This document shows, one piece after another, positions 1,610 through 47,317 of a DNA stretch of 64,000 nt. Position 1 is the first letter of the stretch. Every line of letters starts with the position of its first letter. The stretch spans positions 2,046,001 through 2,110,000 of the forward strand of contig OX637398.1 in NCBI GenBank assembly GCA_951799425.1, written 5' to 3'. Position numbers and translations under genes: made by a program. This DNA is from Ilex aquifolium. Taxonomy: Eukaryota > Streptophyta > Magnoliopsida > Aquifoliales > Aquifoliaceae. Below the pieces are notes generated by a model. That model saw only the letters and a program-made list of their open reading frames with translations, was not told the DNA's origin and searched no databases.

Positions 1610-1974
1610 CTATATGAAGGGATTAGACCCCAGCGTTACACGTGTCCTGGCATTAAATGTGCTCACGTGAGGCTGAAAAGACTAAACACGTGCTTACGAA
1701 TTAAGAATCCGTTATTGTCCCTTATCCAATCCGAGCTAATCAAAAGCTCGGTATACAAGGCAATAGTTCTGCCTCCGAAGTCATCAAGCCTATCGAAGTG
1801 TTCCATCCGAACAATGGAATAGCTCGGCTTGAACTCATCCGAGCTCATGAATGAGATCAGCACGGCAAGAGAGAGGGCGGTTGTGCCAAACCGAGCTCGT
1901 TAACGGATCGGCAAACAGTGGATATGCTCGGCATTAGGAAAGCCCGACCTTATCGAAAGCAGAAGATACAGAAA

Positions 1975-1999
1975 GATTTGCCTAAAACTTAGGCAAATC
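1975..1999 (+). repeat. Perfect hairpin in LTR U3
   Basis: GATTTGCCTAA is followed by a 3-base loop (AAC) and its exact reverse complement TTAGGCAAATC. The 3' LTR copy (about 11522-11546) differs only at the outermost base. It could be a U3 protein-binding palindrome; function is unknown. Confidence 0.7.
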
Positions 2000-2158
2000 A
2001 GATAAACGAGATCTACTAGAATAAAGGCATTCAGAGAAATTATTGGAGAAGAATTAGAAACTTCACAAACTCAAACACTGAAAGAAAGGAATGGGTGCCA
2101 CCTTGCCTCTAAATGAACGGAAACCCTAAATGAACGGAAACCCTAAGGGGAATGCAAG

Positions 2159-2167
2159 CTATAAAAG
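2159..2167 (+). promoter_or_regulatory. LTR TATA box
   Basis: CTATAAAAG lies about 240 bp before the LTR end, as expected for a U3 promoter. It is repeated at 11706-11714 in the 3' LTR. Transcription would start about 30 nt downstream. Confidence 0.7.
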
Positions 2168-2399
2168 AAACGCGAAACCAAGGTGAAAAGGGACGCTGAA
2201 CTCTCCTTGTCTTCGTGCAACTCATATCATCCAGTTACTGACTTAAGCATCGGAGTGCCTTCGATCGAAGCACTTCAATCTTGGGCAGTTTGCTCGTTTT
2301 GCAGGCGGAAGGCTTGGAGATCAAGTTCAGAGATTATCAAAAATCACAGTTCCTAATTTCATATTATCATAGGTAAACCTTATTTTTGCCTCTACATTT

Positions 2400-2415
2400 T
2401 GGCGCCGTCTGTGGG
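2400..2415 (+). other. Primer-binding site for minus-strand DNA synthesis
   Basis: TGGCGCCGTCTGTGGG starts four bases after the 5' LTR. The leading TGG pairs with the tRNA CCA end. The sequence resembles the site described for Ogre-type elements, for which tRNA-Arg is the reported primer; this is from memory of the family and was not tested against a tRNA set. Confidence 0.8.
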
Positions 2416-2447
2416 AAAGATCTTAATCTTTCGAACAAAAAGCTATA

Positions 2448-4664
2448 ATGTCAAGACTCAGGAGCGCAATTGGATCACCAAGGGGCAGTCCTCCCCTAGG
2501 CGATTCTAATCCTGCGTACGTTCCGACTGACAACAACGGGAGGTTGCATGCAGCCAGAAACCCATCTGGGACCCCCGAAAGAGACGAAGCTTCTTCTGCA
2601 AGTTTTAAACCTTCGAAAAGCCGGAACCAGGGGGTTGAAAACCAAGGTGCTGAGGGGGAGAACCGCTCGTTAGCAAGGCTGATCCAATCATTCCAGGACC
2701 GTTTGGATGCTCATGACAATCTCTTCAAAAAGTCGTATGCCAAGGAAAAGGATCTGATCAAGGAGAACGAGGAATTGAAAGCCAGACTAGATGAGATGAC
2801 CAAAAAGGAGAAACGCTCGAGAGAAGGCCGGCGTGAGAGCCCTGAGAGAAAGCCTAGCCGTATCGCAATAGCTGATGACGACAGATACCAGCCGAAGAAG
2901 CCGAGGGTACACGAAGTGGACGCGTGGAAACAGTATATTAACGATGAGCTCAACAGCCGTTTGAGAAGACCAGAGCAAAGGTCGGCTAGGGATCTAGCCA
3001 GGAGAGCAACAGGCGAATATGGAGACGGATGGGAGTCATCCCCATTCACCGCATGGATTGAAAAGGGGCGAATTCCGAGTAAATTCACCGTCCCGAGCTT
3101 CAGACTGTACGATGGAAGGACAGATCCGTCCTCCCATATCAGGCACTTCAGACAGCTCATGACCGTCCATAGAAGAAATGAGCCGCTGTTGTGCACTATC
3201 TTCCCTAGCAGCCTTGGGGAGTCGGCCATGAAGTGGTTTGACAGCCTGCCAAGGGGAACAATTGATGGCTGGGCTCAGCTAGCCGAGCAATTCACGGCTC
3301 GGTTCATCACCAGTAGCAAACAGCCGAAGGATGTTGGAGCTTTGCTCACGTTGAAGAAAAGCAACACCGAGACACTGCGTGAATACGCTCATCGATACTG
3401 GGAGACAATGAACGAAGTCGAGGGATGCAATCCTGAAATTGCAGTTGCATCATTCAAAATGGGATTGCCAAAGGAGAACCCTCTCTATCAGTCGCTTACC
3501 AGGAGGCCGGCAACAGATTTGGAAGAACTCATGGCGAGAATTGAGAAATACGCCAAGGTCGATGACGACCTGACCAGGGAAGTGGTGAAGGACCAACCGA
3601 GAGGGAGGCAGTTCGGCAGAGAGAGGCAATCCGAGCCGAACAGAGAAAGTGGAAGGAAGACCGAAAAGGACGGCTTTCCCCAAAGGTCGTCTTTCCTAGG
3701 AGTGAACACAGTGTTCAAGGAGCCTATTTACAAAATATTGGGTCAGATCAAAGAAAAGCCTTTTTTCAAATGGCCGAGCAAGCTGATGGGAGACCCCTCT
3801 AAAAGGAATCCTAATTTTAGGTGTTCATATCATAAGGATGTGGGACATAAGACAGAGAACTGCCGACACTTGAAGCAGCATTTGGAAGAGTTGGTGCAGG
3901 CCGGGCACCTCGCAGAGTTCATTGAGAGCGGGCGAAAAGCAGACGATGGTAGGGCAGAGCAAGCCGGGGACCACAACACCCCGGCAGGGGTAATTGATGT
4001 GATTCACGCCGCAACTAACCCTCAGATGTCCACTAACAACTCCGCTAGGGCATATATTCAAAAGGCAGCAAAGGAAAGAGAGGTTTACGAGCTGAGAATG
4101 ACACCGGAGGTCACCAACAAAAGAATCAAATTAAGGGAATCAGCCGAGGCGATATGTTTCACCGAGCAGGATTTGGTCGGCGTTCACCAGCCTCATAACG
4201 ATGCCCTAGTCGTCACCCTTCGGATTGCTAACTTTGATGTCAAAAGAGTTCTGATCGATCCAGGGAGTTCTTCAGAGATAATGTATTGGGACTTGTTCCA
4301 GAAGCTCGGCCTCAAGAACCAGGATCTCAAGCCTTCAAACACGCCACTCATCGGCTTTAGCGGTAAAACAGTACTTCCTAAGGGGAAGATCACGCTTCCT
4401 GTAAAAACAGGACCAGTTTGTGTGATGACCGAGTTCCTGGTGGTGGACACCGTCTCGGCATACAATGCGATAATGGGGAGATCCTGGCTGCATGAGATGA
4501 AGGCTGTGCCGTCAACATACCACCAGATGCTAAGATTCCCGTCGGCTGATGGAATAGTGAACGTTCGTGGAGACCAAGTCAGTTCCAGAACCTGCCTTTT
4601 GACCTCGGTTAAGACAAAGGATCCGTGCCGAGAACTTGGCTCGGTCGACGAAAACGAAAAATAG
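2448..4664 (+). CDS. gag-pro: Gag-protease polyprotein of the Tat/Ogre element
   Basis: 738 codons beginning with ATG 50 bases after the LTR. The N-terminal third is charged and partly coiled-coil (about residues 75-130). A retrotransposon gag (capsid) domain spans about residues 210-375 (FRLYDGRTDPSSHIRHF; MKWFDSLPRGTI). A zinc-knuckle variant C-x2-H-x4-H-x4-C is near residue 458. An aspartic protease-like domain starts near residue 600, with catalytic-type IDPGSS and a downstream IMGRSWL. The frame is intact. It ends in UAG followed by CAA UUA, and the downstream pol frame is in the same phase, so Pol is probably made by readthrough. Gag packages element RNA and the protease matures the polyprotein. 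Confidence 0.93.
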   Translation: MSRLRSAIGSPRGSPPLGDSNPAYVPTDNNGRLHAARNPSGTPERDEASSASFKPSKSRNQGVENQGAEGENRSLARLIQSFQDRLDAHDNLFKKSYAKEKDLIKENEELKARLDEMTKKEKRSREGRRESPERKPSRIAIADDDRYQPKKPRVHEVDAWKQYINDELNSRLRRPEQRSARDLARRATGEYGDGWESSPFTAWIEKGRIPSKFTVPSFRLYDGRTDPSSHIRHFRQLMTVHRRNEPLLCTIFPSSLGESAMKWFDSLPRGTIDGWAQLAEQFTARFITSSKQPKDVGALLTLKKSNTETLREYAHRYWETMNEVEGCNPEIAVASFKMGLPKENPLYQSLTRRPATDLEELMARIEKYAKVDDDLTREVVKDQPRGRQFGRERQSEPNRESGRKTEKDGFPQRSSFLGVNTVFKEPIYKILGQIKEKPFFKWPSKLMGDPSKRNPNFRCSYHKDVGHKTENCRHLKQHLEELVQAGHLAEFIESGRKADDGRAEQAGDHNTPAGVIDVIHAATNPQMSTNNSARAYIQKAAKEREVYELRMTPEVTNKRIKLRESAEAICFTEQDLVGVHQPHNDALVVTLRIANFDVKRVLIDPGSSSEIMYWDLFQKLGLKNQDLKPSNTPLIGFSGKTVLPKGKITLPVKTGPVCVMTEFLVVDTVSAYNAIMGRSWLHEMKAVPSTYHQMLRFPSADGIVNVRGDQVSSRTCLLTSVKTKDPCRELGSVDENEK

Positions 4665-4670
4665 CAATTA
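4662..4670 (+). promoter_or_regulatory. Probable stop-codon readthrough signal UAG CAA UUA
   Basis: The gag-pro stop codon is followed exactly by CAAUUA, which fits the CARYYA rule known from tobamovirus replicase readthrough. Downstream codons stay in the same frame and run into RT with no ATG before it; the first start-like codon is a GTG at 4701. This matches a design in which most ribosomes stop to give Gag-Pro and a few continue to give Pol. Confidence 0.75.
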
Positions 4671-7600
4671 ACTATTGACAGCTCGGTCAAACTCGATGAC
4701 GTGGCTGTCAAAGAAAGTCCTGATGTACCTTTGGGAGTAGAAAAGGAAATTACAGAGCGAACCATCAAAGACCTGACGAAAGTACCTCTAGACAAGAATG
4801 GAGATCTGGAAAAATATTTTATGGTGGGGGCAGCACTCAGTCCCGAACAGAAAATAGAGTTGGTAGAACTATTGCAGACATATGCCGATGTATTTGCATG
4901 GAATACTAATGATATGGTCGGAGTACCACCCGAGTTGGCATGTCACCATTTGCATATAAATCCGAGTTATAGGCCGATCAGCCAGAAACTGAGGAAATCG
5001 TCGCCGCAGCACCAGGAGGCAGTAAAAGAAGAGGTGGCACGGTTGCTGGAATCCAAAACGACAAAGGAAGTTAAATACCCGACTTGGTTGTCAAACACAG
5101 TGGTGGTGAAGAAAAAGAATGGTAAATGGAGGGTGTGCGTCGATTTTTCAGATCTGAATAAAGCTTGTCCCAAGGACAGCTTTCCACTGCCTAAGATAGA
5201 TCAGATGGTGGATGCAACAGCGGGGCACGAGCAGATGAGTTTCCTGGACGCTTTCAGAGGATATCATCAGATCCCTCTCGCCGAGGAGGACCAGGAGAAA
5301 ACTGCCTTCATAACCCCAGAAGGGACATATTGCTATAGAGTGATGCCGTTCGGACTAAAGAACGCCGGAGCGACATACCAGAGGTTAGTAACCCGAATGT
5401 TTTCAAATATGCTTGGCCGTACTGTTGAGGTTTATATTGATGATATGGTAATTAAAAGTAAAAAGGCCAGTACACATTGTGCCGACCTCAAGGAGACTTT
5501 TGAGGTCCTCCGAAAGTATAACATGAAGTTGAACGCATCCAAGTGCGCGTTCGGTGTCGGCTCCGGGAAGTTTTTAGGATTTCTTGTTACACACCGCGGA
5601 ATAGAGGTAAATCCCGAGCAGGTAAAGGCAATTACTGAATTACAATCACCTCGGACCGTTAAAGAAGTCCAGCGACTGACTGGAATGGCTGCAGCACTTG
5701 GGAGATTTATTTCCCGAGCCTCTGACAAATGCAGACCCTTCTTTCAGTCCATTAAAGGGAAGAAAGGGGCACTCTGGACCCAGGAATGTGAAGAGGCTTT
5801 TGCAAAACTGAAGGAATATTTGGCGTCCCCGCCGATCTTATCAACCCCCTCACCCGAGGAGAATCTCTTTCTTTATTTGGCCGTATCAGAACAGGCCGTC
5901 AGCGGAGCTTTAATGAGGAATGACGAGGGAAAATTCAAACCTATTTACTATGTGAGTAAGGTGCTCTTAGACGCAGAATCAAGGTACACCTCGTTGGAGA
6001 GGCTGGCATTGGCGCTGGTTAGCTCGGCAAGGAAGCTCAGACACTACTTCCAGGCCCATTAAATTACAGTCCTCACTGACCAGCCGCTTAGGTCACTCTT
6101 CCAGAAAGCCGACCTGTCGGGGCGTATTGCCAAATGGGCAGTTGAGCTCGGGGAGTTTGACATCCGATTCGAGCCAAGGAAAGCCATCAAGGGACAGATA
6201 GTTGCAGACTTTATTGCTGAATTTCAGCCAGAGAGATCCCAGGAAGGGGCCAATGGTAATAAATTAGCGGAACTCGAGGGCAACTGGACTCTATCAGTTG
6301 ACGGTTCCTCAAACCAGAAAGGTGCAGGAATTGGCATCATTCTTGTAAGTCCAGATGGGTGCATACTGGAGAAAGCAATAAGGTTAGGATTTGGAGCTTC
6401 CAATAATGAGGCAGAGTACGAAGCCTTGATAGCAGGTGTGAGGCTGGCAAGTGAGCTCGGTGCGATGAGGCTCCAAATATTTTCTGCCTCACAGTTAGTA
6501 GTGAATCAGATAATAGGGGAGTATATGGCTAAAGATGAAAGGATGATAGCATATCAGGCCGTTGCGGAGAAAGAATTGAGCAAGATAGCAGAGTACTCAA
6601 TCCAGCAAGTGGGTAGGGCTAAGAACTCTCACGCCGACGCTTTAGCTTCGTTGGCTTCGGCAGTTGAGCAGGAATCTGAGAGATCAATCACTGTTGAGTT
6701 TCTCGCAGAGCCGAGCATCCATTTGTCCAGCACGGACGAAGTTTTATGCAACATTATTAAACCGAGCTGGATGGATCAGATAGTTGGTTTTTTGAAGACT
6801 GGTGAATTGCCCGAGGATGAAAAAGAGGCTCGCAAACTACGATTAAAAGCAACCAGATTTTGGTTGTCCCCGAAAGACGAGCTATACAGACGCTCATTTG
6901 GGGGTCCGTACTTAAAATGCGTACACCCCAGCCTAATTCAGGACTTTTTGTCAGAAATACATGAAGGAAGCTGCGGAGCACATACTGGTGGCAGGTCTTT
7001 AGCTCACCGAGCCATCTCACAAGGGTACTGGTGGCCTTACATGCAGAAGGACGCTCAGCAGTTTGTTCGGCGATGTGATAAATGTCAAAAATTCTCCCCG
7101 ATCCCTAGGAAGCCATCAAACGAGCTCCATCCTTTGTCGAGCCCATGGCCATTCGCCCAATGGGGATTGGACATTGTTGGTCCCTTGCCTCGCGCCCCGA
7201 GCAATAAGAAGTACCTGTTGGTGGCTACCGACTATTTCACGAAGTGGATCGAAGCCGAGCCTCTGGCTAACATCAGGGACACTGATACAAGGAAATTCGT
7301 CTGGAAGAACATTATTACCAGGTTCGGCATTCCATACGCACTTAAATCGGACAACGGCACTCAGTTCGATAGTAGGTCTTTCAAAGCGTTCTGTCAGCAG
7401 TATGGTATTCGTAACTACTACTCCACCCCGGCCTATCCTCAAAGTAATGGGCAAGCCGAAATCTCCAACAAAACGATTTTGGATGGAATCAAGAAGAAGT
7501 TGGAGAGTGCCAAAGGAAGGTGGGTAGAGGAACTGCCTAGTGTTCTGTGGTCATACCGAACCACTCCTCGGCGTTCAACTGGAGAGACCCCCTTCGCCTT

Positions 7601-8006
7601 GGCGTATGGTATGGAGGCTGTTATTCCACTAGAAATTGGCTTACCAACTTTAAAAACCGAGCTGGTAGAAGACGGTAGCAACGATGCTGTTATCAGAGGA
7701 GATTTGGATCTAGCCGAGGAGAAGAGAGATTATGCCGCAATAAAAATGGCCTCGTATCGAAGTCAGATGTCCCGAGCCTATAACAAGAATGTGAACCCTC
7801 GTTCTTTTGCAGTGGGGGATCTAGTGCTCAGACGTGTGCTAGGATCGGCGAAAAACCCAACAGACGGAAAGCTTGGAGCAAACTGGGAAGGACCGTACAG
7901 AGTCACCAGAGTTAGAGGCAGCGGATACTACGAGCTTGAAACGCCTGACCAAAAGGCCGTACCGCGCCCTTGGAACACGGCAAACCTCAGAAAATTCTAT
8001 TTCTAA
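4665..8006 (+). pseudogene. pol: Pol polyprotein (RT, RNase H, aRNase H, integrase) broken by one in-frame TAA
   Basis: Same frame as gag-pro. Reverse transcriptase: KNGKWRVCVDFSDLNKACPK, FLDAFRGYHQI, MPFGLKNAGATYQ, and YIDD at 5433-5444. A gypsy-type RNase H follows (LYLAVSEQAVSGAL, with Glu where Asp is usual). It is cut by TAA at 6060-6062; the frame then continues to 8006 without change of phase. A second, archaeal-type RNase H has DGSS (Asp at 6300), NEAEYE and HADAL, but Ala at 6486-6488 where SDSQ is usual. Integrase has an HHCC zinc finger (about 6958-7083) and a D,D-35-E triad at 7170, 7350 and 7458, then a GPY-type C-terminal module. The TAA context is not a readthrough type, so this is decay. 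Domain order is diagnostic of the Tat lineage. Confidence 0.92.
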
Positions 8007-8089
8007 TGTACTAGCACCAATTGTGTCATTCGGAGTATCTAATAAAAAGTAAGGAATTCTTCCAGATCGCATATTTATACTATTGCAAA

Positions 8090-8622
8090 GAATGGAACAA
8101 GTAAACAGTTCCTCACTGGAACCGAACTCTAGTAAGAAAGAGCCGAGCAGGCCATAACTTCTAGAGAATCGAACAAGTAAACGATTCCTACAGCGAACTG
8201 AACTCTAGTAAGAAAGAGCCGAGCAGGCCATAACTTTTAGAGAATCGAATAAGTAAACGGTTCCTACAGGGAACCGAACTCTAGCAAGAAAGAGCCGAGC
8301 AGACCATAACTTTTAGAGAATCAAATAAGTAAACGGTTCCTACAGGGAACCGAACTCTAGCAAGAAAGAGCCGAGCAGGCCATAACTTCTAGAGAATCGA
8401 ATAAGTAAACGGTTCCTACAGGGAACCGAACTCTAGTAAGCAGGAGCCGAGCAGGCCATAACTTATAGAGAATCGAATAAGTAAACGGTTCCTACAGGGA
8501 ACCGAACTCTAGTAAGAAAGAGCCGAGCAGGCCATAACTTCTAGATAATCAGTTAAGTAAACAGTTCCAACAAGGAACCGAACTCCGTGAAGAAAGGCCG
8601 AGCAAATGCCATAACTTCAGAT
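8090..8622 (+). repeat. 76-bp tandem repeat array, about 7 units
   Basis: Units begin at 8090, 8166, 8242, 8318, 8394, 8470 and 8546. The first six are exactly 76 bp. Each carries AAGTAAACGGTTCC, GGAACCGAACTC, AAGAGCCGAGCA and GGCCATAACTT. Units 3-6 are nearly identical; unit 7 and a relic to about 8728 are diverged. GGTTCC/GGAACC forms a small inverted repeat in each unit. Such arrays between pol and the 3' region are common in Ogre-like elements. Confidence 0.93.
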
Positions 8623-8958
8623 GAGGAAAAAGTTTTCGAAGTGTTAAAATTCTGCTTAAATATGAAGTCCTCACTAAAGAACCGAACTCATCGAAGAAAG
8701 GACGAACAAAGGCCACAACTCACTGAGGGTAGAACACTCTGAACATTGGAGGCCCCCCTGAAGGATCAGGCTCTTTGGATAGGCTAAATGGCCAAAGTAG
8801 TTATCTACATACTTTTGACCAAGTTATATAAACCAAAAAGCAAATATACTCAAAATCAAAAAGTTACTTGCATTAAAACTTCAAAAAGTTGTTACAATAA
8901 AAGGGCATTACATCCAGAAACCCAAAAGAAATTGTAACAGAAATTATAACATTCTTTC
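8623..8958 (+). other. Non-coding part of the retrotransposon 3' region
   Basis: Holds decayed repeat units up to about 8728 (AAGAACCGAACTC, GGCCACAACTC). The rest would include the 3' UTR of the antisense gene. I see no other feature. Confidence 0.6.
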
Positions 8959-10907
8959 TCAAGTACTTTCAGGAGGCTGAGATGAGCTAGGAAGGGAGTG
9001 CTGGGAATAGAGCTCGGACGAAGAAGGGACCCCCGCAGCGATCAGTGCAGCATGCCAACCCTTGCTAAAAAACGCATCCTTCAGTTGGGGAATCTGCAAA
9101 GATAGATCGTTCTCTGCTTTCTCAACCCCTTCATCATAGGCGGCATCTTCTTTAACTTTTGCCTCGGCCTTGAATTTATCGAACTCCTCAAGGATACTTG
9201 CATAGTCAAGTTGGGACTGGGAAAGCTCCAAAATGGCTTCATGTTCATAATCCATAAGTTTGCCAATTTCTGCTTTCAGCTGGCGGTTCTCTTCGGTAAG
9301 GCTCTGATTGTCAGCCTGCAGAACCTTAGCCTCTTCACAGACTTTGGCATACTCTTCATCTATTGACTCCTTCTTGGCAAGCGCTGAGGCCCGAGCATGG
9401 ATTGCATCTCTCATGGCCTTATCCTTTCTCGCTATCCTGGCCCCGACCTCGTGCACTTTTTGAAGACCCTGTAAGTTGGGGAGCAGAAAAAGGCTTGGTT
9501 TAACTCACTAATTTTACCAAAGAAAAAGAAGACAAAACTTACCAACACCATGTGCTGAATTGCTTGGCGGGACACTTCGTCGTCAGTCAGTGCCTCATTC
9601 ATAGCAAGGTCCCGAGGCAAAATAACCCCCCTGGCGATCCCTACTGCGACATTGAAATCTTCAATGGCAGAGTCCTTGGTTGTGATCTCTTTCTTTTTTG
9701 ATCTGAGAACAGGACGGAAAGGAGTCTCAGATGGTCTTGGAGAAGCACTCGGTTCGGCTTCATCAGTCCTTCGCCTTTTAAATGCTGGGGCCTCGGCGAG
9801 CTCAAAAAGCGAGTCATCTTCGGGTACAGGGGACTGAACAGGATTTGAAGGCTCCAATCCCTCTGGTATCAAAGGATCCGTTGTTCTAACTAAGTCGGGT
9901 GCTTCGCTGCTCGGACCGACCTCAGCAGCTGATGGAACCGCTTCAACAGGGACCTCGACATCAGCTTCGTCCAGTACAGTTATCGAAGGTATGACGGATG
10001 GAGGAGCAGGTTCAGAAGGTAGGTTCGGTTCAACAGTGGACAGGAAATCCAGGAAGTTCTTCACGGTTCTGCGCCCAGAAGCAGCAAGGGAAGACTTCTT
10101 GCGGGCTCGAGGGGTTTGCTCCCTAGCAGTCTGGATGGCTTCCCGATCTGCTGCCAGTGTGGCATTGGGACGGTTCGGCACGACAATAAATGACGAATAA
10201 GTCGGGACATAACCGAGCAGAGTATGAGCGGCTCGGCAAAATAGAGTTTCATTAAAATCCCAGACCCTCTGAAGTTGATCTAACTTAACAGAGGATTCAG
10301 GGACTCTACCCTTCACAGTCTCTCCTACACAAAAACAACAGCAAGACAAGAATTTGAAAGAATGTGAGAAGTAAAAGAAGCAACTCAAGTAAAGCGAGAC
10401 ATCAAATACCTGACATGCCCTCTTTATAGGGACAACGATAGGATGATACGACTCCGGCAGCGTACTCCCAGTTCCCAGACACGAATACAATGTCGTTTTC
10501 ATGGCCCTTGTTGGAATCTGGAAGATGGGTGACCAGATACCGATCCTTCTTCCTTACAGATAGATAGAAGTTGTCCCCTGCTGCCTTCAGAATATAGCAG
10601 TAGAGGATCTCCCATAGTCCAAGGCTCAAACCTAAGACTTTGTTCAAAGAAACTACCCCCATGACGATCCTGAAGAGATTCAGGCAGCACTGAAGAGGGC
10701 ACAATTTGGCAGCTGACAACACCCAGATGAGAAAGGGGTCAAGAGGGAATCTCACCCCCCTTCAGTGATGGCCCGAGTGGGAATGGGGATTGATTCCCTC
10801 ATGCCTACCAAAGGTTCATCCTTCCCGGCAACCCTGACCTCCACGTCATCAGGGATGTTGTACTTAGTTCTGAATGCTGGGATGTCCGAAGGCTGAAGAG
10901 GAGCCAT
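8959..10907 (-). pseudogene. Spliced antisense gene of the retrotransposon, one frameshift
   Basis: Three minus-strand exons join cleanly: 10907-10410, 10324-9543 and 9468-8959. The introns, 10409-10325 (85 bp) and 9542-9469 (74 bp), both have GT-AG ends. Both junctions keep frame. The product would be about 596 residues: an N-terminal domain with VRFPLDPFLIWVLSAAKLCP and LGLWEILYCYILKAAG resembling the 'putative gypsy type transposon' family (PF04195-like), a disordered acidic middle, then a coiled coil (EENRQLKAEIGKLMDYEHEA). The start is MAPLQPSDIPAF. The first exon is out of frame across a C6 tract (10755-10760 on plus); one more base would restore EGG-VRFPL. Antisense genes at this place are known in Tat elements such as Grande; their function is unknown. 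The frame is otherwise fully open. Confidence 0.8.
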
Positions 10908-11012
10908 TGTAGAAGACAAGACACGCAAGGATGAACACACAGAATGAAGAAGAAGCAAGAGAGGTAGTGAGTGAAGCAAAAAGTGCAGAGTGTACAAAAA
11001 GAAAGAAAAGGC

Positions 11013-11020
11013 GGTTTATA
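11013..11020 (-). promoter_or_regulatory. TATA-like box of the antisense gene
   Basis: On the minus strand CTATAAACC sits about 110 bp upstream of the antisense start codon and lies inside the element, not in the LTR. A transcript start near 10985 would give a leader of about 75 nt. This suggests the antisense gene has its own promoter. Confidence 0.55.
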
Positions 11021-11161: not shown

Positions 11162-11943
11162 TGAAGGGGTTAGACCCCAGCGTTACACGTGTCCTGGCAT
11201 TAAATGTGCTCACGTGAGGCTGAAAAGACTAAACACATGCTTACGAATTAAGAATCCGTTATTGTCCCTTATCCGATCCGAGCTAATCAAAAGCTCGGTA
11301 TATAAGGCAATAGTTCTGCCTCCGAAGTCATCAAGCCTATCGAAGTGTTCCATCCGAACAATGGAATAGCTCGGCTTGAACTCATCCGAGCTCATGAATG
11401 AGATCAGCACGGCAAGAGAGAGGGCGGTTGTGCCAAACCGAGCTCGTTAACGGATCGGCAAACAGTGGATATGCTCGGCATTAGGAAAGCCCGACCTTAT
11501 CGAAAGCAGAAGATACAGAAATATTTGCCTAAAACTTAGGCAAATCAGATAAACGAGATCTGCTATAATAAAGGCATTCAGAGAAATTATTGGAGAAGAA
11601 TTAGAAACTTCCCAAACTCAAACACTGAAAGAAAGGAATGGGTGCCACCTTGCCTCTAAATGAACGGAAACCCTAAATGAACGGAAACCCTAAGGGGAAT
11701 GCAAGCTATAAAAGAAACGCGAAACCAAGGTGAAAAGGGACGCTGAACTCTCCTTGTCTTCGTGCAACTCATATCATCCAGTTACTGACTTAAGCATCGG
11801 AGTGCCTTCGATCGAAGCACTTCGATCTTGGGCAGTTTGCTCGTTTTGCAGGCGGAAGGCTTGGAGATCAAGTTCAGAGATTATCAAAAATCACAGTTCC
11901 TAATTTCATATTATCAGAGGTAAACCTTATTTTTGCCTCTACA
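11162..11943 (+). repeat. 3' LTR
   Basis: 782 bp, co-linear with 1615-2396 with no indels. It is followed by CTATA, the second copy of the target duplication. Confidence 0.96.
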
Positions 11944-11948
11944 CTATA

Positions 11949-13114
11949 CATAATAATCAATAATATAGTACCTCATTTTTGTTAGTAAAATGTCACTTTA
12001 CAAAACATGTTAAAAATTTTCAATATATACCCTTGAAGATTATAAATATCATATTATACCCCTTAATACCCTTTTCGTGTCAAGAAAAATATCAAAATGG
12101 TAAACCTGAATTGACAATGTTGATTTCGCAATTCGCAATGTTTCATGGGCAGTTTATGTTTATGAATAATCAATTAAAAATGGAATCCGTCTAACACGGC
12201 ACATTAGACCACCATCTTTCTTGTTTCACCGTATATGATTCTATTTTTGTTGAACTATTCCATGTCAAAACAAATAATTCCCTCCCATTATACTATCAAC
12301 AAACCCTTATTTCTCCGCACTTTAACTATTGCATGTCTAAGACATCCGCATGATATTAACTATATAAATAATATCTAGATGAAACACATGAATGTAACTA
12401 AGTAGTTGTGTTTGAATTCATTAAATTACTCAACATATATGTTAAAACCTCATTTCAAAACCCAATAAAATTTTGATTTACAATTTGCTTTTGGTTTTTT
12501 CAAAAGTAAATGAAAATTGAGATATTTTGTATGCAAATTTAGGGGAGGAGGGTTGAAAAAACTTTGATATTCAATAATGTGGGTAATGAGTATAAAATGG
12601 TCCAATGCCATGGCATTTACTTTTGAGACTTGCAATTGGTTTCGATGGAAAATCAACAGGCAATGGTCATCATGGTTGACAGGTGACATTATATATATTG
12701 TCCTCGAGTTTATGTCTCTTCCCATTCAAATTATATTCCCCTACAACGTACGACACATTAATCATTCAAATTATTCTCCACAACCACCACTAAAAAATCT
12801 CTGACACCATCCTACTCGAGCGACATTCTCTATGAATCCATGTTTTTTCATTTTGGATTTATTGATGAAGTTTTGAAAGAGAGGAAAAAAGTGATATATT
12901 AAAAACAAGTAATTTGTTTTCAGATCAAAAGATAAATGAGAAAAGGGGTATGGTGATTCAATAATACTTAAAGATCCGAAAAGTACGATATAATTTTTTA
13001 ACATAATGATGTATCAAAAAAATAATTATATGAATAAGTTTAAAAATTACAGTTACAATAATATTATTGGAACATATTAATCATCACATGATCATATTAA
13101 CAAATTAGGTAAAA
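11949..13114. other. AT-rich intergenic DNA, formerly upstream of the DUF627 gene
   Basis: I see no gene, RNA or clear element. Before the retrotransposon landed this was contiguous with 1410-1609, so it probably contains the distal promoter of the minus-strand DUF627 gene. Confidence 0.4.
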
Positions 13115-13750
13115 TCTATATAATAAAGTAACTTACAATTCAAATTTCAAAAGATAAATAAAATGACTTTTACTTTTCGCGGTTTAGATCGCTTTAAATT
13201 TTACTTTAAAGTTAATATAACGGCTAATATTAACACCCTAAATTTAATAAGATAAATAGGCCCCTAAGGGTGTACTTGAAGTGACTTTTAGAAATTATTT
13301 CTCATAAGTATTTAAAAAAAAAAATAGTATTTGAAACCGCCACACCACTACCTCTACCACCACCACCATCACTGCCACCGTCGCCACCACTGTCGGCACC
13401 ACCACCATCGCCGCCACCACCACCACCACCCCTGCCGCCGTCGCCACCACCACCACCGTCGTCTCCGCCACCACCACCATTGCCACCGTCACCACCACCG
13501 TCGTCGCCACCACCGCTGCCACTACCACCACCGTCGTCGCCCCCACCACCATCGCCACTACGGTTATTGCCACCCACCACAACCATCACCGTCTACTACC
13601 ACCACCATCTCTCACCCCCACTATAACCGATACTTAAATTCATTTATCTCTGCTCTATGTTTATGATTTGATTTTGGATATGAATACAAATATGTTTATT
13701 ACTTATCATTTTTTTATTACTCTGTGCCTTCAGGTACAGACAATAACTAA
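13115..13750 (+). mobile_element. Non-autonomous Helitron, copy A, with (CCN)n core
   Basis: Starts TCTATATAATAAAG after an A and ends CTAA before a T, the Helitron A/T insertion rule. A hairpin GTGCC-TTCA-GGTAC (13724-13737, one G-T pair) lies 9 bases before CTAA. It shares its 5' 200 bp and 3' 130 bp with copies at 44729-45350 and 46719-47317. Shared landmarks include TTCGCGGTT, AACGGCTAATATTAACAC, GGGTGTAC/GGGTGTGT and a TTTAAAAAAAAAAATAGT motif. The core (13336-13600) is a CCA/CCG minisatellite. Long reading frames in the core are low-complexity artefacts. No Rep/helicase gene is present. Confidence 0.8.
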
Positions 13751-44482: not shown

Positions 44483-46482
44483 CTTTGTTTGGTAGGTTAT
44501 ATGGAATGATGAAATGTATGAGCGATACATTTTCTCTCCCCAAGATAGAAATTCTATTTTTTTTTTTGTGTTTGATATGAATGATAGAAAATAGGAAGAA
44601 TTTATTTTTTTTGTGTTTGGTATGGATAGAAAAGTGAAAGGAAGGAAGAAGTATATATGTATATTTTAACATCGTGTCTATATATTGAATTAATGTGTAC
44701 ATGATATATAATCGATGAATAAGATATATGTATATAATAAAGTAGCTTACAATTCAAATCTCAAAAGATAAACAAAATGACTTTTGCTATTCGCGGTTGA
44801 GATCACTTTAAATTTTACTTTAAAGTTAATCTAACGGCTAATATTAACACCCTAAATTTAATAGGAAAAATAGGCCTCTAAGGGTGTGTTTGGAGTGATT
44901 TTTTAAAAGTACTTCTAAAAATTATTTATCATAAGTACTTTAAAAAAAAAAATAGTGTTTGAAACCGCTCCACCACTACATCTATCACCACCACCACCAC
45001 CATCACTGCCACCGCCACCGCCACCACCACCACCACTGCCACCGCCACCGCCACCGCCACCACTGCCACCACTGCCACCGCCACCACCATCACCACCGCC
45101 ACCGCCACCACTAACACCACCGTCGCCGCCATCACCATCGCCGCCACCGCCACCGCCACCACGGTCATTGCCACCCACCACAACTATCACCGTTTCCTAT
45201 CACCACCACCTCTCACCCCCACTACAACCGATACTTAAATTCATTTATCTCTCCTCTATGTTTGTGATTTGATTTTGGATATAAATACAAATATGTTTAT
45301 TGTTTATAATTTTTTATTAGTCTGTGTCTTCAGACACATGCAATAACTAGTATGTATATATAAGACATTATATTTGGTAAGAAAGAAAAATGGGAAGGAT
45401 AAAAAAGTAGAAGAATTAACCTTTGTATCCCACCAAAAGTTATTCTTCTTGGTTATGTGGGTTTAAATGTCTATTATTTATCTTTATATCTCTAATATAT
45501 GCATATTAGTCATAACCCGTATCTGAAGGTACGAAGAAACATAAAATTTGGGCATTTAAAAAATTGATTTCACTATACCAAATAACAATTTTTTATTTCT
45601 TTGTTTTTATCATTACATCATTTAAAATTAATTTTTACTTATTATTTTTTAAAAAATAGCATCCAAATTTTCTCAAAATGTATAACTCGACAAAATGCGT
45701 TCAACACGTGGATAATGTTAAATGATAATGTATGGATAATTTTTACTTATTATTTCATGTATGGATAATGTATGAAATAAAAATTATGTTAAATTATAAA
45801 TTAATTAAATGTTAAATGAATGAATATGTGATAAAATTGAATGATGTAATGTTTTTAAAGGGGAAAATGTATTCATAAAAATTATGTTAAATTATAAATT
45901 AATTAAATGTTAAATGATTAAACATGTGATAGAATTGAATGATGTGATGTTTTTAAGGAGAAAAATGTATAGAAGATAAACTTTCAAACTCTTATGTGTT
46001 TTATTATATAGATTTTCAATTTATCTATTACATGTTATGTATACATCAATATGCATTTATATTTTTTCATAATTTCACTTTTCCATCATACTAAAAAAAA
46101 AAATTAATTTTTGTTTACTTTTCATATCTCCTATCAAACATAAAGGAGAATAAGGTAAGGATCTCTCTCATAAATGATAGAAAATATATTCCTCATATTT
46201 TCATCTTTCTATTTTTTATCCACCCTACCAAACACACAATAAGGGATGTAAAGATAAATAATATATATTTCAATACACATAATTAACTTTCTATTCATTT
46301 TTTTCCTAATTTTTGAGAGATAGATTTTGGTGAGATGGAAGGAATTTTAATCATTTCACTTTTTTATTTTTCTCATTTTTTTTTACTAAATATGATGTTT
46401 TATCTATTTTTATAATTTTTCAGTTTTCTATTTTTTCATCTTTTTTGCTTTTTCATCATATCATACCAAGCAAAGTTTAAGA
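44482..46482. mobile_element. MITE-like inverted-repeat element carrying a Helitron and perhaps a second MITE
   Basis: The left AGCTTTGTTTGGTAGGTTATATG and the reverse complement of the right end, AAACTTTGCTTGGTATGATATG, form imperfect inverted repeats. Inside lie Helitron copy B (44729-45350) and a further TTTGGTAAGAAAG...CCTACCAAACAC pair (about 45374-46236). Flank duplication is not clear. Boundaries are approximate. Confidence 0.4.
44729..45350 (+). mobile_element. Non-autonomous Helitron, copy B, with (CCN)n core
   Basis: Aligns with copies A and C from TGTATATAATAAAG (TG in place of TC) to CTAG before T. The 3' hairpin is GTGTC-TTCA-GACAC (45324-45337), fully paired. Relative to copy C (GTGCC/GGCAC) both arms changed together. 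The core 44969-45185 is almost pure CCA/CCG. Reading frames rich in Pro, Gly, Val or Ala in the core are artefacts of the repeat. Confidence 0.8.
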
Positions 46483-46700: not shown

Positions 46701-46718
46701 TTATTAGTTATGTATATA

Positions 46719-47317
46719 TCTATATAATAAAATATAATATAATTCAAATCTCAAAAGATAAACAAAATGATTTTTGTTATTCGCGGTTGAGATCACTTTA
46801 AATTTTACTTTAAAGTTAATCTAACGGCTAATATTAACACTCTATGTTTAATAGAAAAAATAGGTCCCTAAGAGTGTGTTTGGAGTGACTTTTTAAAAAT
46901 ATTTCGAAGAATTATTTCTCATAAGTACTTAAAAAAAAAAATAGTGTTTGAAACCGTCCCACCACTACTTCTACCACCACCACCACCACTACCACCACCA
47001 CCACCCCCGCCACCACCACCGTTGTCGCCACCCCTACCGCTGTCGCCACCACTATCGCCACCACCACCGGCACTACCATCATCGTTACTCAAACCCCACC
47101 ACCAACATCACCATTACCATCCACGACTGTTACCATCACCGTCTCCCACCATCACCACTGTCGTCCACCACTACTATCACCGCTCACCCCCACTACAATC
47201 GGTGTGCTTAAATTTCTTTATCTCTCCTCTATATTTGCGATTTAATTTTGGGTGTGAATACAAATATGTTGACTTTTTTTTAATTACTTAGTGCCTTCAG
47301 GCACGAGAAATAACTAG
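46719..47317 (+). mobile_element. Non-autonomous Helitron, copy C, with (CCN)n core
   Basis: TCTATATAATAAAA after A; ends CTAG before T. The hairpin GTGCC-TTCA-GGCAC (47291-47304) is fully paired and sits 9 bases before CTAG. Its shell is shared with copies A and B. The core 46958-47190 is CCA/CCG/ATC-rich, shorter and less pure than in copy B. Confidence 0.85.

Follow-up and report, generated by a model that had tools for sequence, protein, structure and literature searches.

Organization of the Element

The window, i.e., the whole 64-kb stretch of Ilex aquifolium DNA that was analysed, contains one nearly complete LTR retrotransposon of the Tat type, with LTRs at 1615–2396 and 11162–11943. 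Its features are given by position in the window:

1610–1614 and 11944–11948: target-site duplication CTATA; the 5-mers flanking the LTRs are identical
1615–2396, plus strand: 5′ LTR, 782 bp; 10 differences in 782 from the 3′ LTR (K2P 0.0129)
2400–2417, plus strand: probable primer-binding site, by its position just 3′ of the 5′ LTR and its TGGCGCC start
2448–4664, plus strand: gag-pro ORF, from ATG to the presumably leaky UAG; Pfam Retrotrans_gag (3.1e-12) and a weak Asp_protease_2 match (0.0076) under the cut-off
4659–4670, plus strand: putative recoding signal AAA-UAG-CAA-UUA (UAG-CARYYA), from its sequence and its conservation in copies and families
4675–4711, plus strand: predicted 3′ hairpin, with 10 unpaired nt between the stop and the first pair
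4665–6062, plus strand: pol piece 1 with linker, RT (RVT_1, 3.1e-34) and the start of RNase H (RT_RNaseH_2, 3.9e-23), ended by a private nonsense mutation at 6060–6062
6063–8006, plus strand: pol piece 2 with the additional RNase H (RVT_3, 2.8e-15), followed by the integrase (Integrase_H2C2, 5.8e-13; rve, 2.5e-15)
8013–8620: 76-bp tandem repeat array in the interval from pol to the 3′ LTR; seven unit copies at 8089–8618, 91% matches
8959–10553, minus strand: antisense feature with antisense ORFs in the pol-3′ LTR region
11162–11943, plus strand: 3′ LTR, 782 bp, paired with the 5′ LTR

The gag-pro frame ends in TAG (4662–4664), followed by CAATTA (4665–4670), exactly as a sequence-only reading of this DNA had described. 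The frames 2427–4664, 4665–6062 and 6063–8006 share one common phase, and the pol frame opens at the codon right after the UAG, with no spacer between the gag-pro and pol ORFs. That reading was right in placing the next frame in phase and leading into pol. Its claim that no ATG precedes the RT does not hold, as an in-frame ATG is found at 4821–4823, upstream of the RT domain that Pfam places from residue 148 of the pol piece onwards. A second in-frame stop, which went unmentioned, lies at 6060–6062. This stop is private to the window copy; a sense codon stands there in 39 of the 40 family copies that were scored.

Outside the element, a minus-strand open frame with DUF629 and DUF627 domains occupies positions 1–1398, approximately 200 bp from the 5′ LTR. 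Related repeat blocks with short internal spacings are present at 13110–13684, 44724–45285 and 46714–47093, with a mutual likeness of 60–90%.

Lineage

According to a passage of PMC6317226, the criterion for the Tat clade of Ty3/gypsy (the Ogre/Retand branch of angiosperms) is an additional RNase H between the RNase H and the integrase. The domain order found here (RVT_1, RT_RNaseH, RVT_3, H2C2, rve) has such an additional RNase H ahead of the integrase. Retand elements are described in part of PMC11963269, which also gives ranges, as carrying an antisense ORF and a long pol-3′ LTR region, often with tandem repeats; the element in the window has a pol-3′ LTR region of 3155 bp, a 76-bp array and antisense ORFs. 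The TRP28 domain (PF04195) is given for the Retand antisense ORF in 97% of clusters in a passage of PMC11963269 and in 23% of elements in one of PMC6317226. No PF04195 match was found in seven antisense pieces of 7839–11015, and none of 55 PF04195 places on C1–C4 lay within 12 kb of 70 clade loci (150 of 5837 candidates scored). An antisense match 5.7 kb away was seen in two of 66 protease places (L056 and L059), both without the junction signal discussed below. As only 150 of the 5837 candidates were scored, PF04195 is a weak lineage marker here. The element thus fits Tat by domain order and Retand by anatomy, without PF04195. Together with the many PF04195 matches in the genome, the Tat domain order also points to a flowering plant as host.

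The label "Ogre-type", which had been attached to the element together with "Tat", is unsupported because no spacer lies between the ORFs. Ogre is likewise a Tat relative in which gag-pro and pol are split. However, its ORFs are on average approximately 274 bp apart, an interval that is spliced out in pea and Medicago according to a passage of PMC6317226, whereas nothing lies between them here. The sequence-only reading agrees with that source on the spliced intron of Ogre relatives. Among the recently active Retand clusters of one survey, gag and pol form one ORF in 59% of cases, and in 83% for eudicots, as stated in part of PMC11963269.

Conservation within the Family

The nine-nucleotide string TAGCAATTA occurs twice in the window against 1.06 occurrences expected, and at least as many were found in 27 of 100 shuffles; TAGCARYYA was found five times against 4.51 expected. 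The chance of a degenerate CARYYA at a given stop is about 1 in 512, by arithmetic with equal base frequencies. With a window count near the shuffle expectation, the 9-mer was rejected as evidence by itself. The bare string carries no proof; the weight rests on conservation across copies and families.

For the family, 40 copies out of 384 candidates were scored, the window copy included, in an alignment over window 3600–6200. It was found that UAG is present in 39 of the 40, and the preceding AAA and the following CAAUUA in all of them, while the codons at 4656, 4671 and 4674 occur in three forms each. A constant UAG CAA UUA between varying flanks is the outcome that the sequence-only reading had set as its test. 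When ranked by variant counts within the family, the 9-mer is not extreme, with 6.4% of 9-mers equally invariant; for the 12-mer, the figure is 2.2%. Many copies are decayed and carry other lesions. Since UAG is found in 39 of the 40 copies and the stop at 6060 in one, the UAG is a feature of the family and the stop at 6060 is damage.

Two pairs of copies deserve a separate mention. L028 and L029 (C17, approximately 19 kb apart, on opposite strands) have private lesions in common, and L039 and L040 (C11, approximately 12 kb apart, on opposite strands) do not differ from each other at the junction. The close spacing and inverted orientation of both pairs point to inverted duplication, not to insertion of each copy on its own.

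The Signal in Related Families

Copies of one family could inherit a stop by descent, and the sampling was therefore widened. A degenerate pattern for the protease end, blind to the junction, matched 1283 places in the genome and one in a reversed control; 60 loci from the first 64 places listed on C1 were taken. A stop-CARYYA in any frame, 120–185 nt 3′ of the protease motif, was present in 19 of the 60. In another 29, no stop-CARYYA was found and a FAW motif (ahead of the RT) followed 99–102 codons after the protease motif, with the frame open as far as FAW in 21 of these; the remaining 12 fit neither class. An RT tree, midpoint-rooted, was built from 47 loci (42 of the 60 and five family copies), leaving out the 18 of 65 that lacked an anchor motif, six of which carry the signal. 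Its root split separates 18 loci with the signal from 29 without, with a support of 1.0.

A narrower motif for the clade of the window matched 335 places (control 0), of which 75 were taken from 100 listed. Together with 15 of the 60 loci that match the same motif, they form a set of 90 loci whose selection was independent of the junction. Here, 73 loci have a stop followed by CARYYA, 66 have UAG followed by CARYYA, and 78 have CARYYA. The hexamers are CAAUCA (42), CAAUUA (20), CAACCA (13) and CAACUA (3), with departures or gaps in 12, and every CARYYA locus seen has A as its R. Conservation of the hexamer, the test set originally, is borne out more strongly across families than within one, as the differences mostly stay inside CARYYA (78 of 90 loci).

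Addition of 39 family copies (the one without the stop was dropped) gave 129 aligned loci, with UAG in 109, UAA in 10, a gap in three and a sense codon in seven, among them the poorly aligned L150. UAG with CARYYA is found in 105 of the 129 and any stop with CARYYA in 112. A sense codon in other copies had been named beforehand as an observation that would speak against the signal; it holds for scattered single copies only. The 90 include some near relatives, since 53 of the 129 loci fall into the window's own cluster at 80% identity. Among the 31 clusters obtained at this identity (21 of them single loci), 22 contain at least one locus with a stop and CARYYA and 19 at least one with UAG and CARYYA, and the median pairwise identity among representatives of these 19 is 0.56.

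Relatives were also sought in other collections, with no relatives among viral_contigs, no match among phages, three plasmid records, all under 60% identity, and one distant MAG contig among genome_contigs; no plant reference elements for an RT phylogeny turned up in these collections. The RT-like sequence in these bacterial records (L009, an Anaerolineales MAG contig, and the plasmids H1–H3, of Wolbachia and Bacillus licheniformis; 26–34% identical to the query) is perhaps eukaryotic contamination.

Nucleotides Kept at the Junction

Among the 129 aligned loci, AAA stands directly 5′ of the stop in 123 and CAA directly 3′ of it in 120; AAG and CAG do not occur at these two places in any locus. 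In each of eight other well-kept two-fold columns for Lys, Gln or Glu, both codons are found, with two columns close to pure (118/3 and 110/6). The second codon past the stop is UUA, UCA, CUA or CCA, encoding Leu, Ser or Pro. The absence of AAG and CAG, taken together with this variable residue, indicates that nucleotides are kept rather than amino acids.

Changes were counted on a tree of the 129 loci built without the 12 signal positions. There were between zero and five changes per position at AAA-UA, at the C, A and A that follow the stop and at the last A, against a mean of nine per column. The G of UAG changed 13 times, mostly to UAA, and the two Y positions eight and 11 times. By raw change counts, the 12-mer is within the lowest 2.1% of 12-mers and is not the lowest. 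Taken by themselves, the two Y positions are not exceptionally pure, with 4.7% and 14.6% of comparable columns equalling them.

An alternative means of passing the stop is splicing as in Ogre, where an intron would remove the stop from a subset of transcripts and the unspliced RNA would yield Gag-Pro. In 39 of 39 family copies, a GT is present at 4578 together with an AG at 4877, and in 35 they are 300 nt apart, a spacing that keeps the frame; when scored with rough weights, however, these sites are not above the best background sites in the RT (donor 9.6, acceptor 7.3). The GT is kept in 81 of the 90 other loci, with a median donor score of 7.0 versus 5.6 in the family, but it sits within a stretch coding for Gly-Asp-Gln-Val-Ser. 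Both candidate sites occur in 20 of the 90 loci, with a spacing that is a multiple of three in 18 of these. Taken separately, the AG recurs in only 23 of 85 loci of other families and GTAAGT in 14 of 90, whereas CARYYA is found in 78 of 90. Splicing at this very place is known from Ogre relatives, as described in part of PMC6317226, but there is no spacer between the ORFs here, and the T content of the candidate intron region is only 20–24%. Moreover, splicing leaves both the conserved CARYYA and the missing AAG and CAG unexplained. This explanation is considered unlikely, although it survives better than those discussed below.

As a separate observation, the Gly-Asp-Gln-Val-Ser stretch, at codon 19 past the clade's protease motif, contains GTAAGT, which makes a good splice donor, in 14 of the 90 loci (L128, L150).

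The Linker and Its Reading Frame

The linker behind the stop evolves fast. In the family, pN/pS is 0.96 over 4665–4740, compared with 0.125 upstream and 0.15 in the RT (pooled pairs, not tree-corrected), and over the wider linker (4665–4800), it is 0.62 in frame, with 0.59 and 0.62 for the two shifted frames. As the values are similar in all frames, pN/pS does not reveal the frame, and the counts of stops do. Over 45 codons past the stop in the 112 copies with a stop and CARYYA, frame 0 contains 23 stops, and the two remaining frames contain 403 and 469; 95 of the 112 are stop-free in frame 0, and none is in either other frame. The junction is in phase with the protease motif in 104 of the 112.

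It could be supposed that translation ends at the UAG and that ribosomes start anew downstream, which would produce Pol alone. The in-frame ATG at 4821 is in line with this; among the 112 copies, the first in-frame ATG is at codon 52 in 46 and at codon 2 in another 14. However, the clade has no ATG position in common, an ATG is absent from the first 70 codons in 29 of the 112 copies, and reinitiation explains neither CARYYA nor the stop-free stretch ahead of the ATG. It is therefore regarded as less probable still than splicing. In the 14 copies with an ATG directly behind the hexamer and in frame (e.g., L071, L109 and L116), stop-start coupling could occur.

A Predicted Hairpin 3′ of the Stop

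Folding of window 4662–4726 gave an MFE of −18.1 kcal/mol (z −2.37), with two of 200 shuffles as good. A hairpin was also predicted behind the stop in many of the families. In the window's subclade, the predicted hairpin begins 7–14 nt past the stop. One register, in which position i past the stop pairs with position 56 minus i, can be applied to 77 of 92 distinct sequences in a gap-free alignment. In these 77, 67.9% of cells are paired, compared with 20.6–46.2% in slid registers, and over all 92 sequences, the value is 62.0% versus at most 44.4%. When the best register is allowed at each place, the junction comes out only narrowly best (68% versus a maximum of 63.6% elsewhere). The z-scan of folding is the stronger test. 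For 24 representatives of the alignable group that are less than 85% identical, 55-nt windows at the stop have a mean z of −4.07, and outside the peak the mean is about −0.3, with a lowest value of −1.47; the 29 sister loci without the signal have a mean z of 0.03 at the matching offset.

Covariation is modest. In the 77 sequences, the cells paired and the covariation score beat 1000 of 1000 shuffles, and double changes number five against zero to three in slid registers, but the counts of pairs with two-sided change and of extra pair types were reached by 659 and 795 of the 1000 shuffles. Among the 15 non-alignable sequences, 13 lack a strong fold in 55 nt, the two with one being L176 and L019, which is a copy of the family that carries a 3-nt insertion. 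Folding over 110 nt gave a mean z of −2.25 for 19 representatives, with L110 and L166 near −2.1 despite weak 55-nt values. Because 13 of the 15 sequences left out lack a strong fold, the hairpin is not general and the hexamer is the more widespread of the two; the predicted hairpin seems to belong to a single subclade.

The modest covariation could be taken to mean that hairpin and hexamer are kept for some other RNA role, such as packaging or a pause site for RT, with readthrough incidental. Against such a role stand the match to a known leaky-stop context right where the stop lies and the open pol frame behind it, and this possibility is rated as low as reinitiation.

Programmed Readthrough as the Preferred Explanation

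The least credible explanation is that a dead family has inherited a stop which arose by ordinary nonsense mutation. Although the window copy has a second stop at 6060 and many copies carry other lesions, that stop is private (1 of 40, against 39 of 40 for UAG), and as a general account random nonsense mutation is contradicted by the UAG and CARYYA common to 19 of 31 clusters at a median identity of 0.56 and by a frame maintained past the stop against plain decay.

With high probability, the UAG at 4662 is a programmed, tobamovirus-like readthrough signal that would set the ratio of Gag-Pro to Pol, with a hairpin added in one subclade. The position, the frame, the cross-family conservation of the signal, the open frame of the linker and the prediction of the hairpin are observed here. 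The mechanism itself would run as follows. Most ribosomes would stop at the UAG, releasing Gag-Pro, and a minority would misread it in the tobamovirus-type context AAA-UAG-CAA-YYA, staying in frame across the fast-evolving linker to make Gag-Pro-Pol. The outcome would be an excess of Gag. In the window's subclade, the hairpin would probably act as it does in viral signals of type II, by raising readthrough or by tuning it. We infer ribosomal readthrough, the product ratio and the effect of the hairpin from the sequences. Since the leaky setting is the same as in tobacco mosaic virus and is kept in many related families, the stop very probably sets the amount of enzyme. The earlier proposal that the Gag-Pro to Pol ratio is set by readthrough thus gains support from the conservation in copies and families.

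Comparison with Known Readthrough Systems

UAG-CARYYA had been recognized at the outset as the tobamovirus readthrough context, and a passage of PMC3542737 confirms this, giving it as the type I motif and adding that CARYYA acts on UAA and UGA too. In planta, the TMV signal is reported, in part of PMC2754532, to give 32% readthrough with insertion of tyrosine. As in type I, the window has the UAG and the hexamer (4662–4670) and a long in-phase ORF past the stop, leading into the polymerase part. The differences are that the host is an LTR retrotransposon, that R is A in every CARYYA locus of the sample and that part of the clade has a predicted 3′ hairpin, a feature with which type I is not described in the relevant passages of PMC3542737 and PMC5382211. 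In the same passages, the type II signal has a stem-loop approximately 8 nt 3′ of the stop. The extended hairpin predicted in the alignable subclade is at a similar distance, but the stop is UAG followed by CAA (CAR-YYA) instead of UGA followed by CGG or CUA.

Moloney murine leukaemia virus uses a purine spacer and a pseudoknot, as opposed to CARYYA and a hairpin here, and its protease lies 3′ of the stop. It likewise has a UAG between gag and pol and a 3′ RNA structure (PMC2194720, in part). Among plant elements, SIRE1 of soybean is also an LTR retrotransposon in which an in-frame stop divides two coding parts. It differs in being Ty1/copia, with stop suppression between pol and an env-like gene, according to passages of PMC2829016 and PMC2194720. 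Gypsy-type retrotransposons of rice, including RIRE2, are cited as readthrough candidates in a passage of PMC2754532, and RIRE2 is listed under Tat, Retand, in one of PMC6317226. Going by that citation of the RIRE2 paper, readthrough in a Tat relative, gypsy-type like the present element, was proposed in 1999.

With readthrough already proposed for RIRE2 and reported for SIRE1, what is new here is a variant supported at the sequence level. No printed report of a UAG-CARYYA signal in such elements was found among the literature matches listed, a coverage outside which the most relevant older papers lie.

Implications

Most plant LTR retrotransposon groups keep gag and pol in one ORF, as stated in a passage of PMC6317226, and how they make more Gag than Pol is unsettled. 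In its passage on this subject, a review of December 2025 (PMC12786077) gives frameshifting and a short, spliced GAG transcript as the two main strategies and does not name readthrough. We lean towards the view that a Tat sublineage (19 diverged clusters in one genome) uses a composite cassette, in which an ancient AAA-UAG-CAA-YYA was joined later by a type II-like hairpin in one subclade, the sister lineage having a single ORF without the cassette. As one genome holds the series of single ORF, leaky stop, and leaky stop with hairpin, the gain and the effect of a recoding switch would be directly testable. The findings suggest that the same signal serves viruses and retroelements of plants, whether shared between them or reached by convergence.
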